Positions 6,234 to 36,457 of a stretch of DNA of 38,693 nucleotides are shown piece after piece; position 1 is the stretch's first letter, and each line of letters opens with the position of its first letter. Below the pieces are notes generated by a model. It had not been told where the DNA came from. It did no database searches and saw only the letters and a list, made by a program, of their open reading frames with translations. This DNA comes from a virus. Position numbers and translations under genes: made by a program. The stretch lies in the IMG/VR virus record IMGVR_UViG_3300042876_000684, positions 1 through 38,693 of that record; one strand, given 5' to 3'.

Positions 6234-6275
6234 CGTTTTGTTATAATTTTTTTGACTTATAACAAAACGTTATAA
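6234..6275. promoter_or_regulatory. AT-rich inverted repeats with three GTTATAA boxes
   Basis: CGTTTTGTTATAA (6234-6246) and TTATAACAAAACG (6257-6269) form a perfect 13-bp inverted repeat, and GTTATAA (6269-6275) adds a third box that forms a second palindrome, TTATAAC-AAAAC-GTTATAA. It lies between two minus-strand genes. It may be an operator/promoter for the genes from 6198 onward or an AT-rich hairpin; no GC stem plus U-tract is present. Confidence 0.5.
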
Positions 6276-6797
6276 AATCACGACAAACCCGCTGGGCACC
6301 CACGGCCTGGCCTCCGACACCACCTCCCCCACCCCCTCGACCATGACCTTATCCGTCGCCCCCCTGGGCAACACCTTCACCCACGCCCGCCCCGGATCGC
6401 GCCCCACCCGCATCTTAAACAACGTCCCAGCCAGGTCGATGGCCTCCCTGAGCGGCGCCCTCCCCTCGCCGCTCAACGATTCCCCGGTCCACCACATCAC
6501 CGCCAACTCTGGCTCCCTTCCCTTCAGGGAGGGGTTGGGGGTAGGTTCTTCTCCCGCCGGGATCGCCTCCCCCACCAACTTGACCATCTCCCGCGCAGGC
6601 CAGCACAGCGACAAATGGAAAGCCTCCAACGGCTTCTCCTCCCACCGCGCCACGGTCACATCGGTGGCCTCCGCGGGCACATACTGCCCGCGCACCTCCG
6701 CCACATCGATCTCCCCCCCCATCCGGAGCAGATGCACCCACCTGAATCCCTGCCAGGAAAGCTTGTTATCCACCACCACCACCGGTCCCGGTCTCAT
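6270..6797 (-). CDS. Hypothetical early protein carrying an embedded repeat peptide
   Basis: A 175-aa protein of unrecognised family with an N-terminal part rich in beta-strand residues (WQGFRWVHLL, then IDVAEVRGQYVP). It is coupled by ATGA to the Mom-like gene upstream, so it may act in the same pathway. Residues about 86-93 read TPNPSLKG, the usual translation of a short palindromic repeat found in many bacterial genomes (DNA at 6511-6553), indicating an in-frame insertion. The stop lies inside the GTTATAA inverted-repeat element. Confidence 0.65.
   Translation of the reverse strand: MRPGPVVVVDNKLSWQGFRWVHLLRMGGEIDVAEVRGQYVPAEATDVTVARWEEKPLEAFHLSLCWPAREMVKLVGEAIPAGEEPTPNPSLKGREPELAVMWWTGESLSGEGRAPLREAIDLAGTLFKMRVGRDPGRAWVKVLPRGATDKVMVEGVGEVVSEARPWVPSGFVVIL
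6511..6553. repeat. GC-rich palindromic dispersed repeat inside a gene
   Basis: CCCTTCCC-TTCA-GGGAGGGG followed by TTGGGGGTAGG is the pattern of short dispersed palindromes that translate as TPNPSxKG in many bacterial chromosomes. Here it is in frame within the gene at 6270-6797. It suggests acquisition from a host chromosome. Recognition is by memory of the pattern. Confidence 0.5.
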
Positions 6798-7501
6798 ACG
6801 GCCCCCTGGTAATCAAATTTCAACTGATCTCGCTGTGCCCTGATCCGGATCGCGCGCTGGTCCCGTTCACTGGCAGCAATCACCATCTTATTTTGCATAC
6901 CATCCAACCCATTCAACCGGATTCTCCAGGTCTGGATCCCGTCCTCATTCGTCCGGAACAACTCAAACCCGGCCTGCTGGTAAATCACACCCCGATGCAA
7001 GCGAGTATCGCAATAACTCAGCAGCCATTTCAATTCGTATGGCTCATTCAAAAATACCGGAGGCCGCACCATCAGGTAATTCTGACTGTACTGGCGGATC
7101 CATTGCTTAATCACTGTGCTGGCCAACGTTGAGCGCCACAATCCGCGCCGGTCGTAAAATCCCGGAACATACTCCGGATTGCATAACTCTCCATCGGCCT
7201 GAAACCGCGGATCGATCCACACCCGCGCCAGGTTGAGCACCTGATAGCGCGTCACCTCGCACCGCCCGGCCCGCACATCCTCCACGGACCCAAACCAATC
7301 TTGACAGCGCGTGGCCTGGGGCCTGCCGAACACCAAATAGCCGATCCGCTTGAGCAGATCATCGGTCATAATCACATAAATCTCATACGATGTTTTAAAG
7401 TGAGGCATCTTATGCAGGTAATGTCCCTCTTCAATTGCTCGGGCACAATCCAGCGCGCTCATCGACACTCTATCCGCGTGATAAATATTAATCAGTCTCA
7501 T
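6794..7501 (-). CDS. Mom-like GNAT-fold protein (possible DNA-base modification enzyme)
   Basis: A 235-aa protein with features of a GNAT acyltransferase fold as in the Mom/XF1762-type phage family: a strand ending GYLVFGRPQATRC (about 54-66), the segment VLNLARVWIDP (88-98), a helix after LWRSTLASTVIKQWIRQY (121-138), and LLSYCDTRLHRGVIYQQAGF (160-179). Mu Mom adds a carbamoylmethyl group to adenine and protects phage DNA from restriction; this relationship is inferred from pattern, not alignment. The ATG at 7501 overlaps the stop of the DUF5131 gene (ATGA), indicating coupled expression, and the next gene is coupled too. The upstream extension to 7576 reads Gly/Ala-rich and was excluded. 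A generic acetyltransferase is the main alternative. Confidence 0.65.
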   Translation of the reverse strand: MRLINIYHADRVSMSALDCARAIEEGHYLHKMPHFKTSYEIYVIMTDDLLKRIGYLVFGRPQATRCQDWFGSVEDVRAGRCEVTRYQVLNLARVWIDPRFQADGELCNPEYVPGFYDRRGLWRSTLASTVIKQWIRQYSQNYLMVRPPVFLNEPYELKWLLSYCDTRLHRGVIYQQAGFELFRTNEDGIQTWRIRLNGLDGMQNKMVIAASERDQRAIRIRAQRDQLKFDYQGAV

Positions 7502-8445
7502 CTCGGCCCCTGCTCCCAGGTTATCCCATCCAACACCCGCCCCGCCGCCCGCTTTCCCACCCGCAGCATCCACCACGGATTCACGCCCGGGTTGGGCTGA
7601 TAAACATACGAAACATCATTCCCAACCCAATGCTGAGAAATCGTCCCATCCTTACCCAGGCACAACTCCTCGTTCGCCCCCATCCCCATATTTTCATGAT
7701 CCCCCTCGTACTTCTCAAAGCTGTCCGTATCGCCGTACTGGGGGAATGCTGGCCACCACTCCCCCCAGCTCTTCCACCAAAATTTCACCCCCATATTATG
7801 ACAATCATCCCGCAAATACCGCGCCCAATCCGGATGGCACGGCCTGGCCCCCACGCCCGTCTCAGCCCCGCCGACCACCAGGTTGATTTTCTGGAAAGCC
7901 CACCGCACCCACGCCAAATGCACCGGCCCGATCAGCGGCTCGCAGCTCACCCACCGACCCGCTGCCGGCGTATTTGCCAAATTCTCAAGCCGGTGGCACA
8001 CATCCTGATTCTCAATCGACACCCCGGCCCAAATATTGGCCGCTGGATCGCGACCCTCATACCGCCGTTGGAAGTACCCCATCATCCGCTTCGCTCGCTT
8101 TGTAAGCACGAGGAAGAGGTGCTGGCTGGCCCGCTCCATCGCCTCGAAGATCAAATCCAACGCCTCATCGCTCACATCCTGGTGGAACAAATCGCCCTGG
8201 CTGCTCACCAGCACCGTCTGGGGCTTCTTCCAGTGCGCAGGCTCATCCAACCGCTTATACATCACCTGCACCACATCGAACGGCTGGGCATACTGCTCTG
8301 GCATCGCCTTACCCGCCACATAAGCCCGGTGTCGCATGTTATGCAGCTCCCTGGCCCAGCAATGCTCACATCCCGCGCTCGCCTTATCGCACCCTACCAC
8401 CACGTTCCATGCCTTAGTCACGTAATCGATCTTCGTTGTACCCAT
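7498..8445 (-). CDS. Phage Gp37/Gp68 family (DUF5131) protein, radical-SAM-like
   Basis: A 315-aa protein of the DUF5131 / phage Gp37-Gp68 family. The N-terminus has three cysteines, C19-x6-C26-x2-C29 in the motif GCDKASAGCEHCWA, plausible ligands for an iron-sulfur cluster as in radical-SAM-like enzymes. Later family hallmarks are VLVSSQGDLFHQDV, LFLVLTKRAKRM, WAGVSIENQ, SCEPLIGP and VVGGAETGVGARPCHPDW (glycine-rich, possibly SAM binding). The reaction and substrate are not established for this family. The ATG at 8445 shares a base with the upstream stop (TGATG), and the gene is coupled to the Mom-like gene downstream, so a joint role in nucleotide or DNA modification is reasonable but unproven. 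The longer frame to 8526 only overlaps the previous gene. Confidence 0.85.
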   Translation of the reverse strand: MGTTKIDYVTKAWNVVVGCDKASAGCEHCWARELHNMRHRAYVAGKAMPEQYAQPFDVVQVMYKRLDEPAHWKKPQTVLVSSQGDLFHQDVSDEALDLIFEAMERASQHLFLVLTKRAKRMMGYFQRRYEGRDPAANIWAGVSIENQDVCHRLENLANTPAAGRWVSCEPLIGPVHLAWVRWAFQKINLVVGGAETGVGARPCHPDWARYLRDDCHNMGVKFWWKSWGEWWPAFPQYGDTDSFEKYEGDHENMGMGANEELCLGKDGTISQHWVGNDVSYVYQPNPGVNPWWMLRVGKRAAGRVLDGITWEQGPR

Positions 8446-9341
8446 CACGCACCTCCCATATACTTCTTCGCAAACGCCGCCAACTCCGTCTTCATTTTCA
8501 TTTCTTCCAGGATGGCAGTCTGCCACAACCCCTCATCCCGCTGGGCCAACACCGCCTCTTCCACCAGGCTCGCCAACTGGCTCGGATTGACCGCGTCCAA
8601 CTCCCACGACGACTCGCCGAACTCATCCACGTAAGCACCATAGCGCGAATCGGTCTCCTTCGCCGGGTTCTCCGGAGGAGACCATTTCTCGATCTGATCC
8701 CAGTTCAGCGCGATCCGCACCACCTCTAACCCGCCAATCACTCCCACTTCCGAGTACATCTCCAACCGTTCGCGCACATCCCGGGTCATATCGATTCCAG
8801 ATGGGTCATGGTCACCTAGATAGACAACGCACAATTTTTTCCCATGCCGCCACTCATAATTCAACCGCTTCCCAAACTCGTACATCGTAGACGAGCTGCT
8901 GTAACCCTTATTCGCCGTAATCGCGATATCCAACCGCTGGCAAACCGGCTCCAACACCCCGCTCAACGCATCCTTCTCAACCATCACCTCCACATGCCAC
9001 GGCTGCCCATGCCACTTGTCAATCCGGAACTGCTGGGCCGCTACCTGGATGATCTCACCCGGGTTATTCCAATGAGACAGCGAAGTCGTCTCCCGCCCGC
9101 GATCCTCGATCATCCCCCAATCGATCAACCCCGCCTGGCGCGCGTTCGACACCAGATTACCCATGTTTTTATAGCTGCGCTGGTTATTTTCGACATAATC
9201 CCGCGAAACCATCTGGTAATACAACTGCCGCAGGCTCAGCCGGAACCCCTGCAACCGGTACTCCTCCAAAATCGCATTGATCGTCTCGATCATCGCCCGG
9301 CTTTCCGCCGAAAATTTACGGTCAACAAATTTCTCTTTCAT
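8445..9341 (-). CDS. Spo11/Topoisomerase VI A-like protein with TOPRIM domain
   Basis: A 298-aa protein with the two parts of a Topo VI-A/Spo11 core. LSLRQLYYQMVSRDY (about 36-49) resembles the winged-helix segment carrying the catalytic tyrosine (Y41 or Y42), and a TOPRIM domain follows with E122 (VMVEKDALSGVL) and GDHDPSGID at 176-184 (D177, D179). KGYSSSSTMYEF between them matches the family. Topo VI-A proteins cut DNA through a tyrosyl link together with an ATPase B subunit; no B subunit is seen here, so it resembles the stand-alone 'Mini-A' proteins of mobile elements. It could nick or cleave DNA for replication or recombination. AAGGAG precedes the ATG; it is coupled to DUF5131. Confidence 0.78.
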   Translation of the reverse strand: MKEKFVDRKFSAESRAMIETINAILEEYRLQGFRLSLRQLYYQMVSRDYVENNQRSYKNMGNLVSNARQAGLIDWGMIEDRGRETTSLSHWNNPGEIIQVAAQQFRIDKWHGQPWHVEVMVEKDALSGVLEPVCQRLDIAITANKGYSSSSTMYEFGKRLNYEWRHGKKLCVVYLGDHDPSGIDMTRDVRERLEMYSEVGVIGGLEVVRIALNWDQIEKWSPPENPAKETDSRYGAYVDEFGESSWELDAVNPSQLASLVEEAVLAQRDEGLWQTAILEEMKMKTELAAFAKKYMGGA

Positions 9342-9344
9342 GCC

Positions 9345-9560
9345 CTACTCCTTTCCTTCCAACGAACCCCACCCCCACCGCTGCAACGCCCCCAGGCCAC
9401 CGGCTACCACCACGAACGCCACCACCCCGGCTGCCAGCACCCACTCCACCCCCAGACCCGGAAACAAAAATCGCCGCCCCAGCGCCACCAACGCCATCCA
9501 TGCCAGCGCCATGCACAGCCCAATAAAACCATCTAACACCACCAATACCCGCTCGCTCAT
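9345..9560 (-). CDS. Small two-span membrane protein
   Basis: A 71-aa protein with two hydrophobic segments (about 6-28, LDGFIGLCMALAWMALVAL, and 38-58, WVLAAGVVAFVVVAGGLGAL) and short charged ends. The ATG at 9560 overlaps the upstream stop (ATGA). Its function is unknown; an early-expressed membrane protein could be an exclusion or inner-membrane factor, and a pinholin-like role cannot be ruled out. Confidence 0.6.
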   Translation of the reverse strand: MSERVLVVLDGFIGLCMALAWMALVALGRRFLFPGLGVEWVLAAGVVAFVVVAGGLGALQRWGWGSLEGKE

Positions 9561-10060
9561 TTTTGCCCCCTTCGCGCCCATTCCATCATCCGAACTCCGG
9601 CCACCTTCAAATCCCACGGAGCGCCCAACTTCCGCTCCCCATACGCCAGGCCCCACAGATGCACCTGGTCGATAACAGTGCTGCCATATATCCCGCACAG
9701 CCCCTTATAGCAAAGCCCCGGCCTACGCCACAGCGCATCCAAGAGCTTCACGTGCACCGCATATATATACCGGACTCCATACCCGGCCCGGATCCGCTGT
9801 GCTGCCTGGTTATGGCCCACGATCCTATCCTCATTCACCACCGGCGCCCACCCCTCTTCCAGGATCGCAGTGCCCCGCTGTAACACCTCGCGCCCCCACG
9901 CCGTCAGCTCGCACTGCTCATCGACCATGTCCTTCATCGCAAACCGCCGAGCGCCATTCATTCTTGCGTGTTCTAACCGCGTCGCCATCAAGCGCAGATC
10001 GCCGAACTGGCTCCAATTAAGATCCGTATAATCCAACAGCCACTGCTCTTTATCAGTCAT
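9557..10060 (-). CDS. Hypothetical early protein
   Basis: A 167-aa soluble protein of unrecognised family. Its segment KLLDALWRRPGLCYKGLCGIYG followed by TVIDQVHLWGLAYGE, with a preceding LTAWGREVL, looks like winged-helix modules (one at the start, one near 105-145), so DNA binding is possible. AAGGAG lies 7 nt before the ATG. It sits 11 nt after the PAPS-reductase-like gene and overlaps the next gene by ATGA, within the early operon. Confidence 0.65.
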   Translation of the reverse strand: MTDKEQWLLDYTDLNWSQFGDLRLMATRLEHARMNGARRFAMKDMVDEQCELTAWGREVLQRGTAILEEGWAPVVNEDRIVGHNQAAQRIRAGYGVRYIYAVHVKLLDALWRRPGLCYKGLCGIYGSTVIDQVHLWGLAYGERKLGAPWDLKVAGVRMMEWARRGQK

Positions 10061-10071
10061 CGAAAATCTCC

Positions 10072-11244
10072 TTATCTAACAAGTAAACTTTGCACAACCA
10101 ACTTACCCGCTTCCGATCTGATCAAATCAATCGGCTTATCCGCGACAATATCCTGCTCTGACCATTTCCGCGGCCAAGCATCCGCCGCCCACAACGCCCG
10201 GATCCGCGCCTGCTCCTCCGGATTGATTAGGTCCACCGACGCTCTCGCCTGGATATCCAGCACCCGCTCCAACCCATACGCCCGCCCGGCCATCGTCAAC
10301 GGCCCCATCCGCTGCCCGTTTTTTGAAAGGCTTCCGTCCTTCAAAACCTCCGGGCTCGCCTTGCGCTTACGCCACTTCGACCGGATCAGCTCGCGATACA
10401 GCGGCTTCAACTCCAACAGCGGCGAAAGGTAGCTCCAGGCCGGATCGCGCACGAGCCGCTCCAACGCCGTATCTCTCGACGCCAGGTTACAGCCCACGCA
10501 CCCCGTCCGCACGTCCTCATCCCCATAGATCGCCGCAATATCCGACACGTTGAACCCGTGCCGGGCCTGCTCGAAATACAGCCAGTCATAGACATGGCAA
10601 ACCCGCCAATGTAACAGCGGCGCCAATGTATCCGCCACGCTCTCATCCGTCGAAGTCTGGAACCACCCCTGTCCACACTCGCCCGAATCGCGTGAGCAAG
10701 AAAAAGCAATCCGCTGATCCCGCGCCGCGCTCTCACCCAACCGCACCCCGGTCATCATCAACAATTTTTCTCCGGTAGCCTGGCGCAGGTCCTGGAGCGC
10801 AGCCATCATCGGTGCCACCTTGATCTGCCCGGTGCACCACCGGAAAGTGTTCTTCGGTGGCGGCACCCCGAGGCCCAGCATATACACGTAAAAGCGTTTA
10901 TCTAACTCAGGCAAAACCACCTGAGCCTTGAACCCCAACGAGCTCAAAACCTTCAACAGCCCCATCGCCGTCATTTGCAAAGGAGGCAGCTCCATCCGGG
11001 TATCCGCGTACAAAACCGTCAAACTCTCCGGAGCAGGCACCAGGTGATTGAGGATTGCCCACGTCACGAAGATCACCGTAGCCGACGAATCCTTCCCGCC
11101 GCTATACGCCACCGCCCAATGCCGATAACGCCGCCCATACTCATTGAGGCTCATCAAACTCAATGACAGGCTATCCTCCAGCGTCATCCGCACCCCCTCA
11201 AACAGCGTCTCCTGGCGCATCCGGACCTTTCTACTAATCACCAT
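10072..11244 (-). CDS. PAPS reductase / DndC-like PP-loop protein
   Basis: A 390-aa PP-loop ATPase of the PAPS reductase/DndC superfamily. The nucleotide-binding loop is SGGKDSS at 48-54. Other family elements are VLYADTRMELPP, RWCTGQIK (C137), TGVRLGES-x2-R (165-175) and GCVGC (C249, C252), so C137, C249 and C252 with C183 or C190 could bind an Fe-S cluster as in DndC. DndC activates sulfur for DNA phosphorothioation, whereas PAPS reductases reduce sulfate; no other dnd gene is present. A nucleotide or DNA sulfur-chemistry role is therefore inferred. GGAGG lies 6 nt before the ATG, and three ATGTTCACAC boxes lie just upstream, so the gene likely heads a transcript controlled by those boxes. 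Confidence 0.82.
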   Translation of the reverse strand: MVISRKVRMRQETLFEGVRMTLEDSLSLSLMSLNEYGRRYRHWAVAYSGGKDSSATVIFVTWAILNHLVPAPESLTVLYADTRMELPPLQMTAMGLLKVLSSLGFKAQVVLPELDKRFYVYMLGLGVPPPKNTFRWCTGQIKVAPMMAALQDLRQATGEKLLMMTGVRLGESAARDQRIAFSCSRDSGECGQGWFQTSTDESVADTLAPLLHWRVCHVYDWLYFEQARHGFNVSDIAAIYGDEDVRTGCVGCNLASRDTALERLVRDPAWSYLSPLLELKPLYRELIRSKWRKRKASPEVLKDGSLSKNGQRMGPLTMAGRAYGLERVLDIQARASVDLINPEEQARIRALWAADAWPRKWSEQDIVADKPIDLIRSEAGKLVVQSLLVR

Positions 11245-11260
11245 TGCCTACCTCCAATAA

Positions 11261-11301
11261 ATGTTCACACTCTCAAAACAATGTTCACACGATGTTCACA
11301 C
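11261..11301. repeat. Three ATGTTCACAC iteron-like boxes upstream of the PAPS-like gene
   Basis: ATGTTCACAC occurs at 11261-11270, 11281-11290 and 11292-11301. Offsets of 20 and 11 bp put the boxes on roughly the same DNA face. Together with the groups at 11451 and 11587 they suggest binding sites for one phage protein (initiator or repressor). Degenerate relatives lie at about 11366-11382. Confidence 0.75.
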
Positions 11302-11450
11302 TCGCCTTACCCGCCCTACCCCCCTATAAGGCTTACAAGGCAAAATCGAGACGCTATCTCATATACATTCACAAATATTCATAAAGTAGTTAAAAAAGCC
11401 TCCTTTTTGGAGATTGACGGCCATCCAAAAACGACCGGTAAGGGACATCC

Positions 11451-11475
11451 GTGAACATGTGAACGTTGTGAACAT
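11451..11475. repeat. Three GTGAACRT boxes (inverse orientation)
   Basis: GTGAACAT (11451-11458), GTGAACGT (11459-11466) and GTGAACAT (11468-11475) are the reverse complement of the ATGTTCAC boxes, packed 8-9 bp apart. They flank the central dyad on one side. Confidence 0.75.
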
Positions 11476-11493
11476 TGGTAGGGGGTAGCGCAA

Positions 11494-11568
11494 TGTAATT
11501 TGTAATTGTGTTTTCTGGCAAAATCACACCCTGAAGAGCCTAATTTGCCAATTACAAAACAAATTACA
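11494..11568. other. Nested dyad; candidate replication origin core
   Basis: TGTAATT (11494-11500) pairs with AATTACA (11562-11568), TGTAATTG (11501-11508) with CAATTACA (11549-11556), and TGGCAAAAT (11516-11524) imperfectly with AATTTGCCA (11542-11550). This interrupted AT-rich dyad lies between two groups of iteron-like boxes and beside the primase-helicase gene. The 373-bp region 11245-11617 has no credible gene; an 80-codon frame there is simply translated repeats. Confidence 0.55.
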
Positions 11569-11586
11569 CGCCCCCATACCTGTACA

Positions 11587-11621
11587 ATGTTCACAATGTT
11601 CACAAAGTTCATAACGTTCAC
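11587..11621. repeat. Four tandem 9-bp iterons at the primase 3' end
   Basis: ATGTTCAC (11587), ATGTTCAC (11596), AAGTTCAT (11605) and ACGTTCAC (11614) recur at an exact 9-bp period. The last overlaps the stop codon of the primase-helicase gene. This is the tightest of the three groups in the intergenic region. Confidence 0.75.
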
Positions 11622-14500
11622 ACCAAACTCCCTTGCACCGGCTTTTGAGCGCCCTGGGCAGGCTTCTCGCCCTCTGGTGGCGGCCCAAAATCATCCGGGT
11701 TCACCCCGTGCTTGATCGACAGCCCCAAAACGCGCGGCTCATTCCAAAAGAACCAGTAGCCATCCCGCTGACGTTCATCCAGTTTCATCTGGAAGGTCTT
11801 TCGAATGATGTCACCCACCTTGCGCGGCTTGACTTCCTTTTCCGGGTTTCGGTCATCCTCCGCGGTCTCGTTCATCTCGTTGATCAGGTCATTGACGACC
11901 TTGGTAATATCCCCGATCTTAATCTTGGAGTTCCCAAGCTCATCGACCTTGATCTTCGCGTGCAGGTCTGGATATTTCCAGACCTTCCACATGGCTTCGA
12001 GCACGCGAGCCTCAAGTTGCATGTTCAAATCCTGGGTCATCTCCTTGTAATAGTCCCGCAGGGTGCGCCGGATATCTTCCTGCTGGTCCTGATCCTCATA
12101 CGCAATCGCCAGCAATGGCCCGGCCACCTGGTTCAACCGGGCTGAGATCGTCGTGTCGTAGAATTTCGAATCCACCGGGATCTCTTTCTGCCAGGTCTCC
12201 AACCGCCACCGCACCAATAAATTGCGCAGCGCCTGAGCCCTGGCCATCTCCTGGTCAGTCATTACCAGTGGGATATTAGCCGCGATCAGCTCCAACGTTT
12301 CTCTCGGTGCAAGGTTCAGCGTGAGAGACCGACTGGCTGGCGCATCATCTTTAGATTCACGCCGCTGCACGATCATTTTGGGAGCAAATGTTCTAAAGCT
12401 CACTGACTCCCAGGTTTTCTCTCCATCCGGACCCGTAACCTCAATCGTCCTCCAGATCGGGTTACCTGCCATTGCGCCGGTATTAATAAATTTGATCATC
12501 TCGCTGGCAGCATCCCCGCCATCCTCGAGGTCAAACTCGTCAAGGAACACCGTGCCCCGATATCTTTCTAGAGCACGGAAGAGGCTGCTGGGCGAAGCCG
12601 CGCCGCTCGCCGTCATGGTCCGGTAGCAGACGAAGCCGATTCTCTTCATAAGTTCACTTTTGCCGCTGCCCGCGCCGCCCATCGCGCGCAGGTAGATCAC
12701 GGTTTTGAAGCTGTCGTAAATCCACGTGGACATAACCCAGTATGAAATTAGCCGTGCGATTTTTTCCGATGGCATCAGATAAACCGCATTCAAATAACCT
12801 TCGATATACGTCACCAACTCTTTGAGCGATTTTTTATCCCCAAGCGCACTGGCGAATGTGACTCCCCCGCTCGCCAACACCTCGTTGGGGGGGGATGGCA
12901 GATAGCGCTGCCCATCGATGATCACCTCGTGCCCACTCCCCACCACCCCCACCGGGTCGCGCCAGGCCAGCGCAGCCTTTTGCGTCTCGATGTCATATAA
13001 ATATTCAATCAGCCAATCATGGATGTACCCGCCCCACGTATAGACCGGTGCGCTCCCACTGTCATCATCCTTATCGCCACCAGTAGCAGCCTTCAGCATC
13101 CGCGCGAAGTCGCGTGATTTTGTTCCGAGCGCAGTGACCAGGTCCCCCTGTAGAATCCCCAGGTCCTCTTTGGCCAGCTTGGCAATCACCCCCATCGCAT
13201 ACAGAGCTGCATCGTGCCTGCGTGCCCCTTCCTGCCGCCCGGCCCAGATCGCCACCTCTTCGGCCAGGGTCCGGCTCCCGTTGATAATCTGCCCGATCTG
13301 ATCTTGCTGCGCTTTTTCGTCGACCGCAGGCTTCGCTTCCTGCCCTGGCTCACTGATCGGGTGCTGCCATAGCTTGAGCACATCATTCGCGTCTTTGATG
13401 TAGCTCTGCTCGATATCGTTCTGCCCGGCCCGCTCCCAGTGCACCAGGTAGGTCATCGGCCCCAACGCCAGCATCCCTTTGAGCGTCCCCTTCGCTTCCT
13501 TGCCCTTGAGCACCTCATCCAGGTAAGTATCCAGGCTGCCTGCCTTATCGTTATCCAGCCCCATAAACTTGCGCCGGTGCCCCTTCAGCCTGGCTACCAG
13601 GTTGCTATCCAACGAAGTCCCCACCTGCGCCATCGCCGCGATCCCCCACTGGTCAAGGCTCAGCGCATCCGCCTGACCTTCCACCACCACACATTGCTCA
13701 GCCCCCGACGACCAGGTGTGATTGAAATACGGCTGCCGCGCCCCCACCAGCTTGCTCGGCAGGTTGTAATGCCGTTTTTCGTGTATTCCTCTGCCGGAGT
13801 AGAAGCAAATCCGGCCATCCTTCACATGTACATACACCAGCATATCCTGGCCAACCAGCCCCGGGATATGGCCATGATCGACCCACTTCTCGTCCAGCTC
13901 GTCGATCTTATGCTCACGCGCCCACCCGCGCACGTCGCCCGAATAGCCGCACAGCGCCACCGCCTCCGGCCCGTAACCATCCACCCCCTGGCCTGCCAGG
14001 CTCTTACGCAGGTCCTCACTCAGCGCTCTACCCTGGCTTTCCGAACCCGAATAACCCAACAGGTTCCGCCGTATGACCTCATCAGACCAACCCCTCCCCC
14101 TGGCATATGCAAGCGGCTCCCCCCCCTCCACCTGCCATAGCAAACGCTGGAAGAAACCAACCGCCGCACTCAGCGCATCCTCACGCGCCCGGGCGGCCAT
14201 GCGCGCCACCTGGCTCTCACCGTTCCATTCCGGTGGCGCCAGGTGCGCCCGGCGGCACAACAGCTCTACCGCCGCCTTGAAATCGCACCGCTGGAAGCGC
14301 ATTGTCCAGTTGATCACGTCCCCGTGCTCATCCTTGCTATTCCAGTGATAGCTTTGCTTGTGCGTATCCACCACCAGACTGTCATGCAATCGACAAACCC
14401 GGTACCTGCCCGCCTTACTCGCAAGCTGGAAACCGTCTTCTTCGATCACATCCTCAATCCGGTTGCGCTCTAACACCTGCCCAACGATGTCATCAGTCAT
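11618..14500 (-). CDS. Primase-helicase replication protein
   Basis: A 960-aa fusion that would prime and unwind DNA at the phage fork. Residues 34-82 look like a degenerate CHC2-type zinc-binding primase start (CRLHDSLVVDTHKQSYHW...GDVINW). A TOPRIM domain follows with E274 in VVVEGQADALSL and the acidic GLDNDKAG at 314-321. The C-terminal half is an ATPase/helicase with Walker A GGAGSGKS (608-615) and Walker B VFLDEFD (651-657), then the sensor region NTGAMAGNPIWRT. The layout is that of phage and plasmid TOPRIM primase-helicases. It is the largest early gene and abuts the iteron/dyad region, as expected for a replication module. One zinc-ligand position is not obvious (H, C and C are present), so the zinc site may be degenerate. 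Confidence 0.92.
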   Translation of the reverse strand: MTDDIVGQVLERNRIEDVIEEDGFQLASKAGRYRVCRLHDSLVVDTHKQSYHWNSKDEHGDVINWTMRFQRCDFKAAVELLCRRAHLAPPEWNGESQVARMAARAREDALSAAVGFFQRLLWQVEGGEPLAYARGRGWSDEVIRRNLLGYSGSESQGRALSEDLRKSLAGQGVDGYGPEAVALCGYSGDVRGWAREHKIDELDEKWVDHGHIPGLVGQDMLVYVHVKDGRICFYSGRGIHEKRHYNLPSKLVGARQPYFNHTWSSGAEQCVVVEGQADALSLDQWGIAAMAQVGTSLDSNLVARLKGHRRKFMGLDNDKAGSLDTYLDEVLKGKEAKGTLKGMLALGPMTYLVHWERAGQNDIEQSYIKDANDVLKLWQHPISEPGQEAKPAVDEKAQQDQIGQIINGSRTLAEEVAIWAGRQEGARRHDAALYAMGVIAKLAKEDLGILQGDLVTALGTKSRDFARMLKAATGGDKDDDSGSAPVYTWGGYIHDWLIEYLYDIETQKAALAWRDPVGVVGSGHEVIIDGQRYLPSPPNEVLASGGVTFASALGDKKSLKELVTYIEGYLNAVYLMPSEKIARLISYWVMSTWIYDSFKTVIYLRAMGGAGSGKSELMKRIGFVCYRTMTASGAASPSSLFRALERYRGTVFLDEFDLEDGGDAASEMIKFINTGAMAGNPIWRTIEVTGPDGEKTWESVSFRTFAPKMIVQRRESKDDAPASRSLTLNLAPRETLELIAANIPLVMTDQEMARAQALRNLLVRWRLETWQKEIPVDSKFYDTTISARLNQVAGPLLAIAYEDQDQQEDIRRTLRDYYKEMTQDLNMQLEARVLEAMWKVWKYPDLHAKIKVDELGNSKIKIGDITKVVNDLINEMNETAEDDRNPEKEVKPRKVGDIIRKTFQMKLDERQRDGYWFFWNEPRVLGLSIKHGVNPDDFGPPPEGEKPAQGAQKPVQGSLV

Positions 14501-35242: not shown

Positions 35243-36457
35243 TTATGGCACCTTGAATACGCAGAATCTGCTGATCCGCACGGTACCTGACACAGCCTGA
35301 AACTGCCAATAAGAGCGGATTTTGGTCGTATTGGCCGGGATGATTACGTTGGCAGTCCTGAGAATTGCGTAGCGAGGATTAACAATAGCCGCTCCACTGC
35401 CACCCCCAGCCGAATATCCCAATGCATACTCGAATTTCAGGACACTGCTGCTGGCGTTGAGACAAGCAAGATAAAGGTTTATGTTAAATGCCCCAACCCA
35501 ATCGTCGTCAGAATCCAATTCGAGCATAGCGGCGATATTGTCTCCAACCGCAAAACCCGTGGTCGCATCGCCGATCATGCTCAGCGTCAAGGTATCCGAT
35601 TCGGCGCCCAAGACCGCTTTCTGCCAGTTCCCTACTCCGGAACCGTGGGCAATCTGCGACCAGGTGCCTCCACCGGTCGCCGTATAAAAATGGGCTACCG
35701 TTCCGGTGGCCGGCGCGGATTTTGTTCCATCGGTTCCGGTCATGAGCGGATTCGGAACGGCGTTGAACCAAATCAATCGCGGATCGCTGTTGTTTGGGAT
35801 CAGTATGTCTCGCACCGGAATAATGTTTTTTAGGTCAGCATACATTTTCTGGCCGATGGTGCCGGCTCCCAGCGCGTTGGGATGGACCTGATCGCTAATT
35901 GTGTAACCGGCCAGTGGCACCGCATACGCCGAACCGGTATCACGATAGAGCGGTCCGATATCAGACAAAACAAACTTTTCGGCAGGTTGGTCGGCGGCGT
36001 AAATTCGCAAGCGATTGTTGACATCCAGCCACGTTGCCGTGCGCTGAGTGGTATTAAAAACAGACGACGGCAATATCGTTGTGCCAATTACCCGCTGGCC
36101 ATTGCTAAAGCACTTGTTGTATATCGCAACCAGGTTGCTATAGATTGTGTCAGCACTGGCATCCGCCGCAATATCGTTTGCCCCGCCTTCGACGAGTACC
36201 CATCCGGCGTCCTTCGACAAAACATCAGGCTGTATTCTCGTCAGCATCTGGGTGGTCGATTCTCCGCCCACCCCGGAGTTGGCAATAACATCCAATCGCT
36301 GCCCCAACAATGCGTTAGCCCAATTCCAGAACCCGCAACCCGTTGGGTGGGTGGCGTTTTCGAGCGTGATGGAATCACCAAACAACACAAGGCCGAAACG
36401 GTTTTTGTTGCTCCCGCTGAGCATGCGCTTTCTGTGCATATTCATAGTTCTGTTCAT
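35243..36457 (-). CDS. SGNH/GDSL hydrolase in the head module
   Basis: A 404-aa esterase-type protein. Catalytic SGNH blocks are clear: FGDSI with Ser29, SGVGG with Gly62, GGANDI with Asn94, and SDQVHPN with Asp189 and His192. Enzymes of this family remove acyl groups from polysaccharides, lipids or peptides. Residues about 215-404 form a beta-rich domain likely to bind glycans (VAHFYTATGGGTWSQI; SGTVRISRFCVFKVP). GGAGG lies 8 nt before the ATG. It lies between structural protein genes, so it is probably a virion component deacetylating the host surface during infection. Nearly all catalytic residues are in place. Confidence 0.85.
   Translation of the reverse strand: MNRTMNMHRKRMLSGSNKNRFGLVLFGDSITLENATHPTGCGFWNWANALLGQRLDVIANSGVGGESTTQMLTRIQPDVLSKDAGWVLVEGGANDIAADASADTIYSNLVAIYNKCFSNGQRVIGTTILPSSVFNTTQRTATWLDVNNRLRIYAADQPAEKFVLSDIGPLYRDTGSAYAVPLAGYTISDQVHPNALGAGTIGQKMYADLKNIIPVRDILIPNNSDPRLIWFNAVPNPLMTGTDGTKSAPATGTVAHFYTATGGGTWSQIAHGSGVGNWQKAVLGAESDTLTLSMIGDATTGFAVGDNIAAMLELDSDDDWVGAFNINLYLACLNASSSVLKFEYALGYSAGGGSGAAIVNPRYAILRTANVIIPANTTKIRSYWQFQAVSGTVRISRFCVFKVP

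Follow-up and report, generated by a model that had tools for sequence, protein, structure and literature searches.

A Mom-like GNAT protein, a DndC-like PP-loop protein, and a DUF5131 protein in a putative anti-restriction gene cluster of a phage probably infecting Chloroflexota

The sequence analyzed here (the window) is a stretch of 38,693 bases that spans the whole of an IMG/VR virus record, IMGVR_UViG_3300042876_000684. It encodes a terminase, a portal protein, a head maturation protease, and a serine integrase, a gene content that reads as that of a temperate tailed phage. A lipase/esterase-like protein (phrog_6102, E = 5e-40) is encoded amid the structural genes, at positions 35243 to 36457. 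The host probably belongs to the Chloroflexota (Anaerolineae), since all five cellular contigs that encode relatives of the Mom-like protein described below are Chloroflexota sequences.

The minus strand carries, from position 11244 down to 6270, the genes for a PP-loop protein, two small proteins, a Toprim protein, a DUF5131 protein, a Mom-like protein, and a further protein encoded at positions 6270 to 6797 (Table 1). The preliminary description had placed the PP-loop, DUF5131, and Mom-like genes here, and domain searches agreed in all three cases (PF01507, E = 1.4e-8; PF07505, E = 2e-72, 244 bits against a cutoff of 28.9; PF25680, 30.7 bits against a cutoff of 27.1, covering only 35 residues). 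It had also considered the latter two genes to be coupled by overlapping codons, which could be read directly from the sequence: the ATG codon of the Mom-like gene (7501-7499) overlaps the stop codon of the DUF5131 gene (7500-7498) as ATGA. The start of the DUF5131 gene similarly overlaps the Toprim stop codon as TGATG, and such overlaps couple all of the last four genes of the cluster, from Toprim to the 6270-6797 gene. Three genes separate the PP-loop gene from the DUF5131 gene. Because the genes are closely spaced and lie on one strand, it is plausible that the entire cluster constitutes a single operon.

Table 1. Genes and flanking elements of the cluster
Feature	Positions	Strand	Remarks
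DndC-like PP-loop ATP pyrophosphatase, phrog_12882 'PAPS reductase', 390 aa	10072..11244	-	SGGKDS motif
Small 167-aa protein between the PP-loop and Toprim genes	9557..10060	-	only marginal PHROG match, E = 0.009
Small hydrophobic protein	9345..9560	-	ATGA overlap with preceding gene; from sequence
Toprim-domain protein, phrog_6247 'DNA topoisomerase'	8445..9341	-	E = 1e-106
DUF5131 protein, 315 aa	7498..8445	-	invariant CX6CX2C
Mom-like GNAT protein, 235 aa	6794..7501	-	
175-aa protein	6270..6797	-	ATGA overlap with Mom-like gene
Perfect 13-bp AT-rich inverted repeat	6234..6269	-	directly 3' of the 6270-6797 gene
Nine iteron-like copies of TGTGAACATTG	11259..11622	.	upstream of the PP-loop gene

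The cluster is flanked by two noncoding elements. Between the primase gene and the PP-loop gene, four of the TGTGAACATTG copies are perfect and the rest carry one or two mismatches; the array is a candidate operator or replication origin. At the opposite end, the inverted repeat would form a strong hairpin (z = -4) that is not followed by a T-tract and is possibly a terminator or an operator. Homologs of the Toprim protein are encoded in loci L114 and L068 and, in truncated form, in L018 and L019; no homolog of the 9557-10060 protein was found in the loci fetched.

The protein encoded at 6794-7501 matched the phrog_1384 family ('Mom-like DNA modification protein') with an E-value of 1e-9, and its profile-profile comparison with Mom of phage Mu in hhalign was of no more than intermediate strength (E = 1e-4 and a probability of 57%, with ∼21% identity over 119 columns). 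The Mom family product is N6-carbamoylmethyladenine. A comparison of the predicted structure with Mom had been named in advance as a check of the preliminary description, and it came out in its favor: the model (mean pLDDT of 91.9) has the GNAT fold, its best matches are GNAT acetyltransferases, and the viral matches include Mom from Salmonella phage FSL SP-031 (E = 2.3e-6). The protein shares with Mu Mom (PF25680, phrog_1384) not only this fold but also an HY motif and a D-x(n)-G-x-x-Y motif. It is referred to here as Mom-like, not Mom, and, judging from its sequence and modeled fold, is a divergent relative of the Mu protein. Single-sequence searches with it found nothing in phage records or viral contigs, a search of PDB sequences returned spurious matches only (E of about 0.03), and the Mom-like subfamily had no match among 50,697 phage records. 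The relatives that were recovered come from 18 viral loci and five cellular contigs and, after de-duplication, represent 18 distinct loci, not counting the window. In L018 (9935-14854), as well as in L019, the DUF5131 gene is flanked by two Mom-like genes, with a Dam methylase gene and the truncated Toprim gene located upstream.

The PP-loop protein is best described by the phrog_12882 'PAPS reductase' family (E = 2e-124), and a sequence search of the PDB with it gave no matches. It is also recognized by the PADLOC model of DndC, the sulfurtransferase of DNA phosphorothioation (E = 1.5e-34), and by the DndC model TIGR03183 (E = 6e-33), in the latter case with 114 bits, well below the equivalog cutoff of 290. 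Although the identity to the Salmonella DndC is only 27%, the two proteins have in common the ATP-binding motif SGGKDS and the aligned residues Cys137, Cys249, and Cys252; a second set of cysteines, Cys183, Cys190, and Cys216, is specific to the phage family and absent from DndC. Three cysteines hold the 4Fe-4S center of DndC (PMC10853773), and the phage protein, by its aligned residues, probably binds such a cluster as well. A canonical Dnd or Ssp system was considered and rejected, as PADLOC detected no partner genes in the window ORFs to which it was applied, a subset of the ORFs of a record that may itself be incomplete. With both DndD and DndE missing from that subset, this is not a canonical phosphorothioation system.

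In the DUF5131 protein, the three cysteines pointed out in the preliminary description (Cys19, Cys26, and Cys29) are identical in all 46 aligned sequences. Three clustered cysteines are likewise found in spore photoproduct lyase, which belongs to the radical SAM enzymes and has a DNA substrate, and in the NCBIfam family TIGR04471 (radical SAM mobile pair protein A), which matched DUF5131 with 53 bits against a cutoff of 355. However, the spacing in DUF5131 is CX6CX2C and does not conform to the radical SAM motif CX3CX2C. A fold search with the DUF5131 model (pLDDT of 87) yielded no match at E ≤ 0.001; the nearest fold was that of spore photoproduct lyase (E = 8.5e-3, TM score of 0.39), and weak similarity extended to viperin and NifB. 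DUF5131 also matches the PADLOC candidate-defense models PDC-M41B and PDC-M30B. Literature searches found no paper that deals with DUF5131 in connection with Mom or phage.

The Mom-like and PP-loop genes are genuinely associated. Eight of the 18 distinct relatives (L002, L006, L016, where the gene is truncated, L183, L192, L195, L198, and L199) have a PP-loop gene of the PAPS reductase type no more than 3 kb from the Mom-like gene; the other 10 have none in the vicinity. Counted by Pfam PF01507 alone, such genes were detected in 7/18 Mom-like loci and, anywhere in the record, in 7/86 controls (Fisher's exact test, P = 0.0024), a comparison that is conservative with respect to distance but uses controls unmatched for the hosts and habitats of all Mom-like loci. 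The controls combined 50 phages picked by DUF5131 with 39 picked by the window terminase, which gave 86 distinct records; with the short control contigs dropped, P was 0.004. The Mom-adjacent PP-loop proteins are of several kinds, some belonging to phrog_12882 and others matching phrog_424 (E-values from 3e-10 to 2e-27). When the presence of a PP-loop neighbor was mapped onto the Mom tree, seven changes were required, and well-supported branches forced no fewer than three of them, so the pairing cannot be attributed to a single inherited event; on the PP-loop tree, the Mom-linked proteins appear in four places. The genes for an N4/N6 methylase, a Mom-like protein, and a PP-loop protein overlap head to tail in L183. 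No prior account of the link between Mom and PP-loop proteins was found in literature searches. Two loci deserve separate mention: in L192 (6930-10600; also L193) the Mom-like gene is immediately preceded by a pair of phrog_424 PP-loop genes together with a DUF488 gene, and in L016 (7597-8148) an in-frame TAG cuts the PP-loop gene about half-way, reflecting either a decayed gene or an assembly error. Certain genes in L016 and L006 seemed DpdA-like, but neither Pfam nor PHROGs bore this out, and 7-deazaguanine modification was dismissed.

DNA methylases are frequent in the same neighborhoods, being encoded within 8 kb of the Mom-like gene in 10 of the 18 loci; for C5 methylases taken separately, the frequency (5/18 vs. 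5/39) did not differ significantly. In relatives of the window locus, the position beside the PP-loop gene is held by C5, N4/N6, or Dam methylases. Among those that lack a Mom gene, tight coupling links the PP-loop gene to a C5 methylase gene in L024, L034, and Rhizobium phage RR1-A, to an SNF2-type methylase gene in L025, and to a Dam methylase gene in L030. A Mom gene was present within 10 kb in only 2 of the 84 PP-loop loci. Thus, the view that the three enzymes of the cluster jointly build one modification, as the preliminary description proposed, was not supported: the Mom-like, PP-loop, and DUF5131 genes each regularly occur without the others, and methylases replace Mom beside the PP-loop gene.

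Tests of co-occurrence had a split outcome with respect to the earlier proposal, as the association of Mom-like and PP-loop genes stood out above the control but that of DUF5131 did not, this gene being common in the window's phage lineage in the absence of both of the others. Among the 39 terminase relatives of the window, 16 encode DUF5131 and none encodes a Mom-like protein, and L101 carries a homolog of the 6270-6797 gene after its DUF5131 gene, with no Mom gene in between. Lineage can therefore explain why DUF5131 is found next to Mom in the window, and the terminase control removes that adjacency as evidence for DUF5131 being a specific partner of Mom. With respect to the PP-loop gene, DUF5131 lies within 10 kb of it in 23 of the 84 PP-loop loci, and in the terminase set all three carriers of a PP-loop gene also have DUF5131 (P = 0.06); the reverse test gave 0/80. 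Given the high background in this lineage, these figures only hint that DUF5131 might be enriched next to the PP-loop gene. Another phage of the same lineage, L102 (15707-17663), encodes a PP-loop protein of another kind, and the product of the gene after it resembles IbrB/ParB by eye.

Because the partners of the PP-loop gene interchange, a kit of separate marks is preferred here over a single pathway. With slightly better than even confidence, the cluster is judged to be a modular accessory island that serves anti-restriction in a temperate tailed phage, whose hosts are probably Chloroflexota, and that makes separate marks rather than the product of a three-enzyme pathway. The Mom-like GNAT would modify bases of the phage DNA with a small acyl-type group, probably at N6 of adenine as in Mu, and the DndC-like protein, with ATP and its probable Fe-S cluster, would place a second, sulfur-based mark, for which a host desulfurase might supply the sulfur. 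The DUF5131 protein, radical-SAM-like, would be a semi-permanent member of the phage lineage with a task of its own. These parts would act as modules of one kit that shields phage DNA from host nucleases, not as successive steps toward one product. The genes, the folds, the conserved cysteines, and the recurrent pairing of Mom-like and PP-loop genes are observations made here; the DNA target, the nature of the marks, and their protective role are suggested by homology and gene neighborhood. A point against the island is that the PP-loop proteins of phages may have a role other than DNA modification.

The same three genes might instead be chance neighbors, caught together in an accessory region that is rich in such genes. 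This fits DUF5131 well, which occurs in 16 of 39 phages of the terminase lineage with or without the other genes, including L101 with its Mom-less arrangement of DUF5131 and a 6270-type gene, but it does not fit the presence of Mom with PP-loop genes in 7 of 18 loci vs. 7 of 86 (P = 0.0024) and in several different combinations, so that chance is an unlikely explanation of the whole. In a single pathway, the PP-loop protein would activate or thiolate the group that the Mom-like GNAT puts on adenine, or would finish a group placed by Mom, yielding a new modified base, perhaps with the help of DUF5131. The enrichment of the pairing, the variety of PP-loop subfamilies that take part in it, and its translational coupling in L183 would agree with this, and the scarcity of PP-loop neighbors in canonical Mom phages would fit a different chemistry in the window's subfamily. 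However, a nearby PP-loop gene is lacking from 10 of the 18 Mom-like loci, 82 of the 84 PP-loop loci have no Mom within 10 kb, methylases occupy the same place, and a loose island accounts for the same facts, which leaves a joint pathway distinctly unlikely. Its two-enzyme form, in which the Mom-like GNAT and the PP-loop ATPase of Chloroflexota phages would produce a so far unseen DNA modification, such as an ATP-activated or sulfur-bearing adenine adduct, in contrast to Mu, whose Mom works with no PP-loop-type partner, is just as doubtful.

Alternatively, the proteins of the cluster might act not on phage DNA but on tRNA or rRNA, nucleotide pools, or host defense proteins. Both the PP-loop and the GNAT superfamilies include many enzymes that modify RNA or small molecules, and in mycobacterial prophages the label 'RNA methyltransferase' is attached to DUF5131 genes or to genes near them. 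Against this stand the DNA methylases, whose genes lie near the Mom-like gene in 10 of 18 loci and are also immediate neighbors of PP-loop genes, as well as the fact that the best-known relatives, Mom and DndC, both modify DNA; a target other than DNA appears the least probable of the explanations considered. To our knowledge, phage genes annotated as 'PAPS reductase,' although common, have no assigned role. Under the preferred interpretation as an island of separate marks, their recurrence with Mom-like proteins and methylases would suggest a concrete and testable one, the marking of DNA against restriction.

Genes similar to PAPS reductase have been seen beside DNA methylases in Rhizobium phage RR1-A and Pseudomonas phage phiC725A, that is, the same PP-loop family in a DNA-modification neighborhood; in the window, no methylase was detected and the neighborhood contains a Mom-like GNAT instead. 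Mu-type Mom was matched in 290 phage records. In 9 of 10 such records read, no annotated PP-loop gene lay within 5 kb of the canonical Mom, although many genes there are labeled 'hypothetical protein' and one could have been missed. The exception is Psychrobacter phage Y8A, which encodes a PAPS reductase about 4 to 5 kb away; in this genome (L282, 6521-7778), a ParB/sulfiredoxin gene overlaps the Mom-like gene, and the PAPS reductase gene is located upstream. The paper on the Psychrobacter phage names both Mom and PAPS reductase and draws no connection between them (PMC10434257). Most of the canonical Mu-type Mom loci read are devoid of PP-loop or methylase neighbors, in contrast to the Mom-like subfamily of Chloroflexota viruses defined in the current analysis, whose gene neighborhood is unlike that of Mu.
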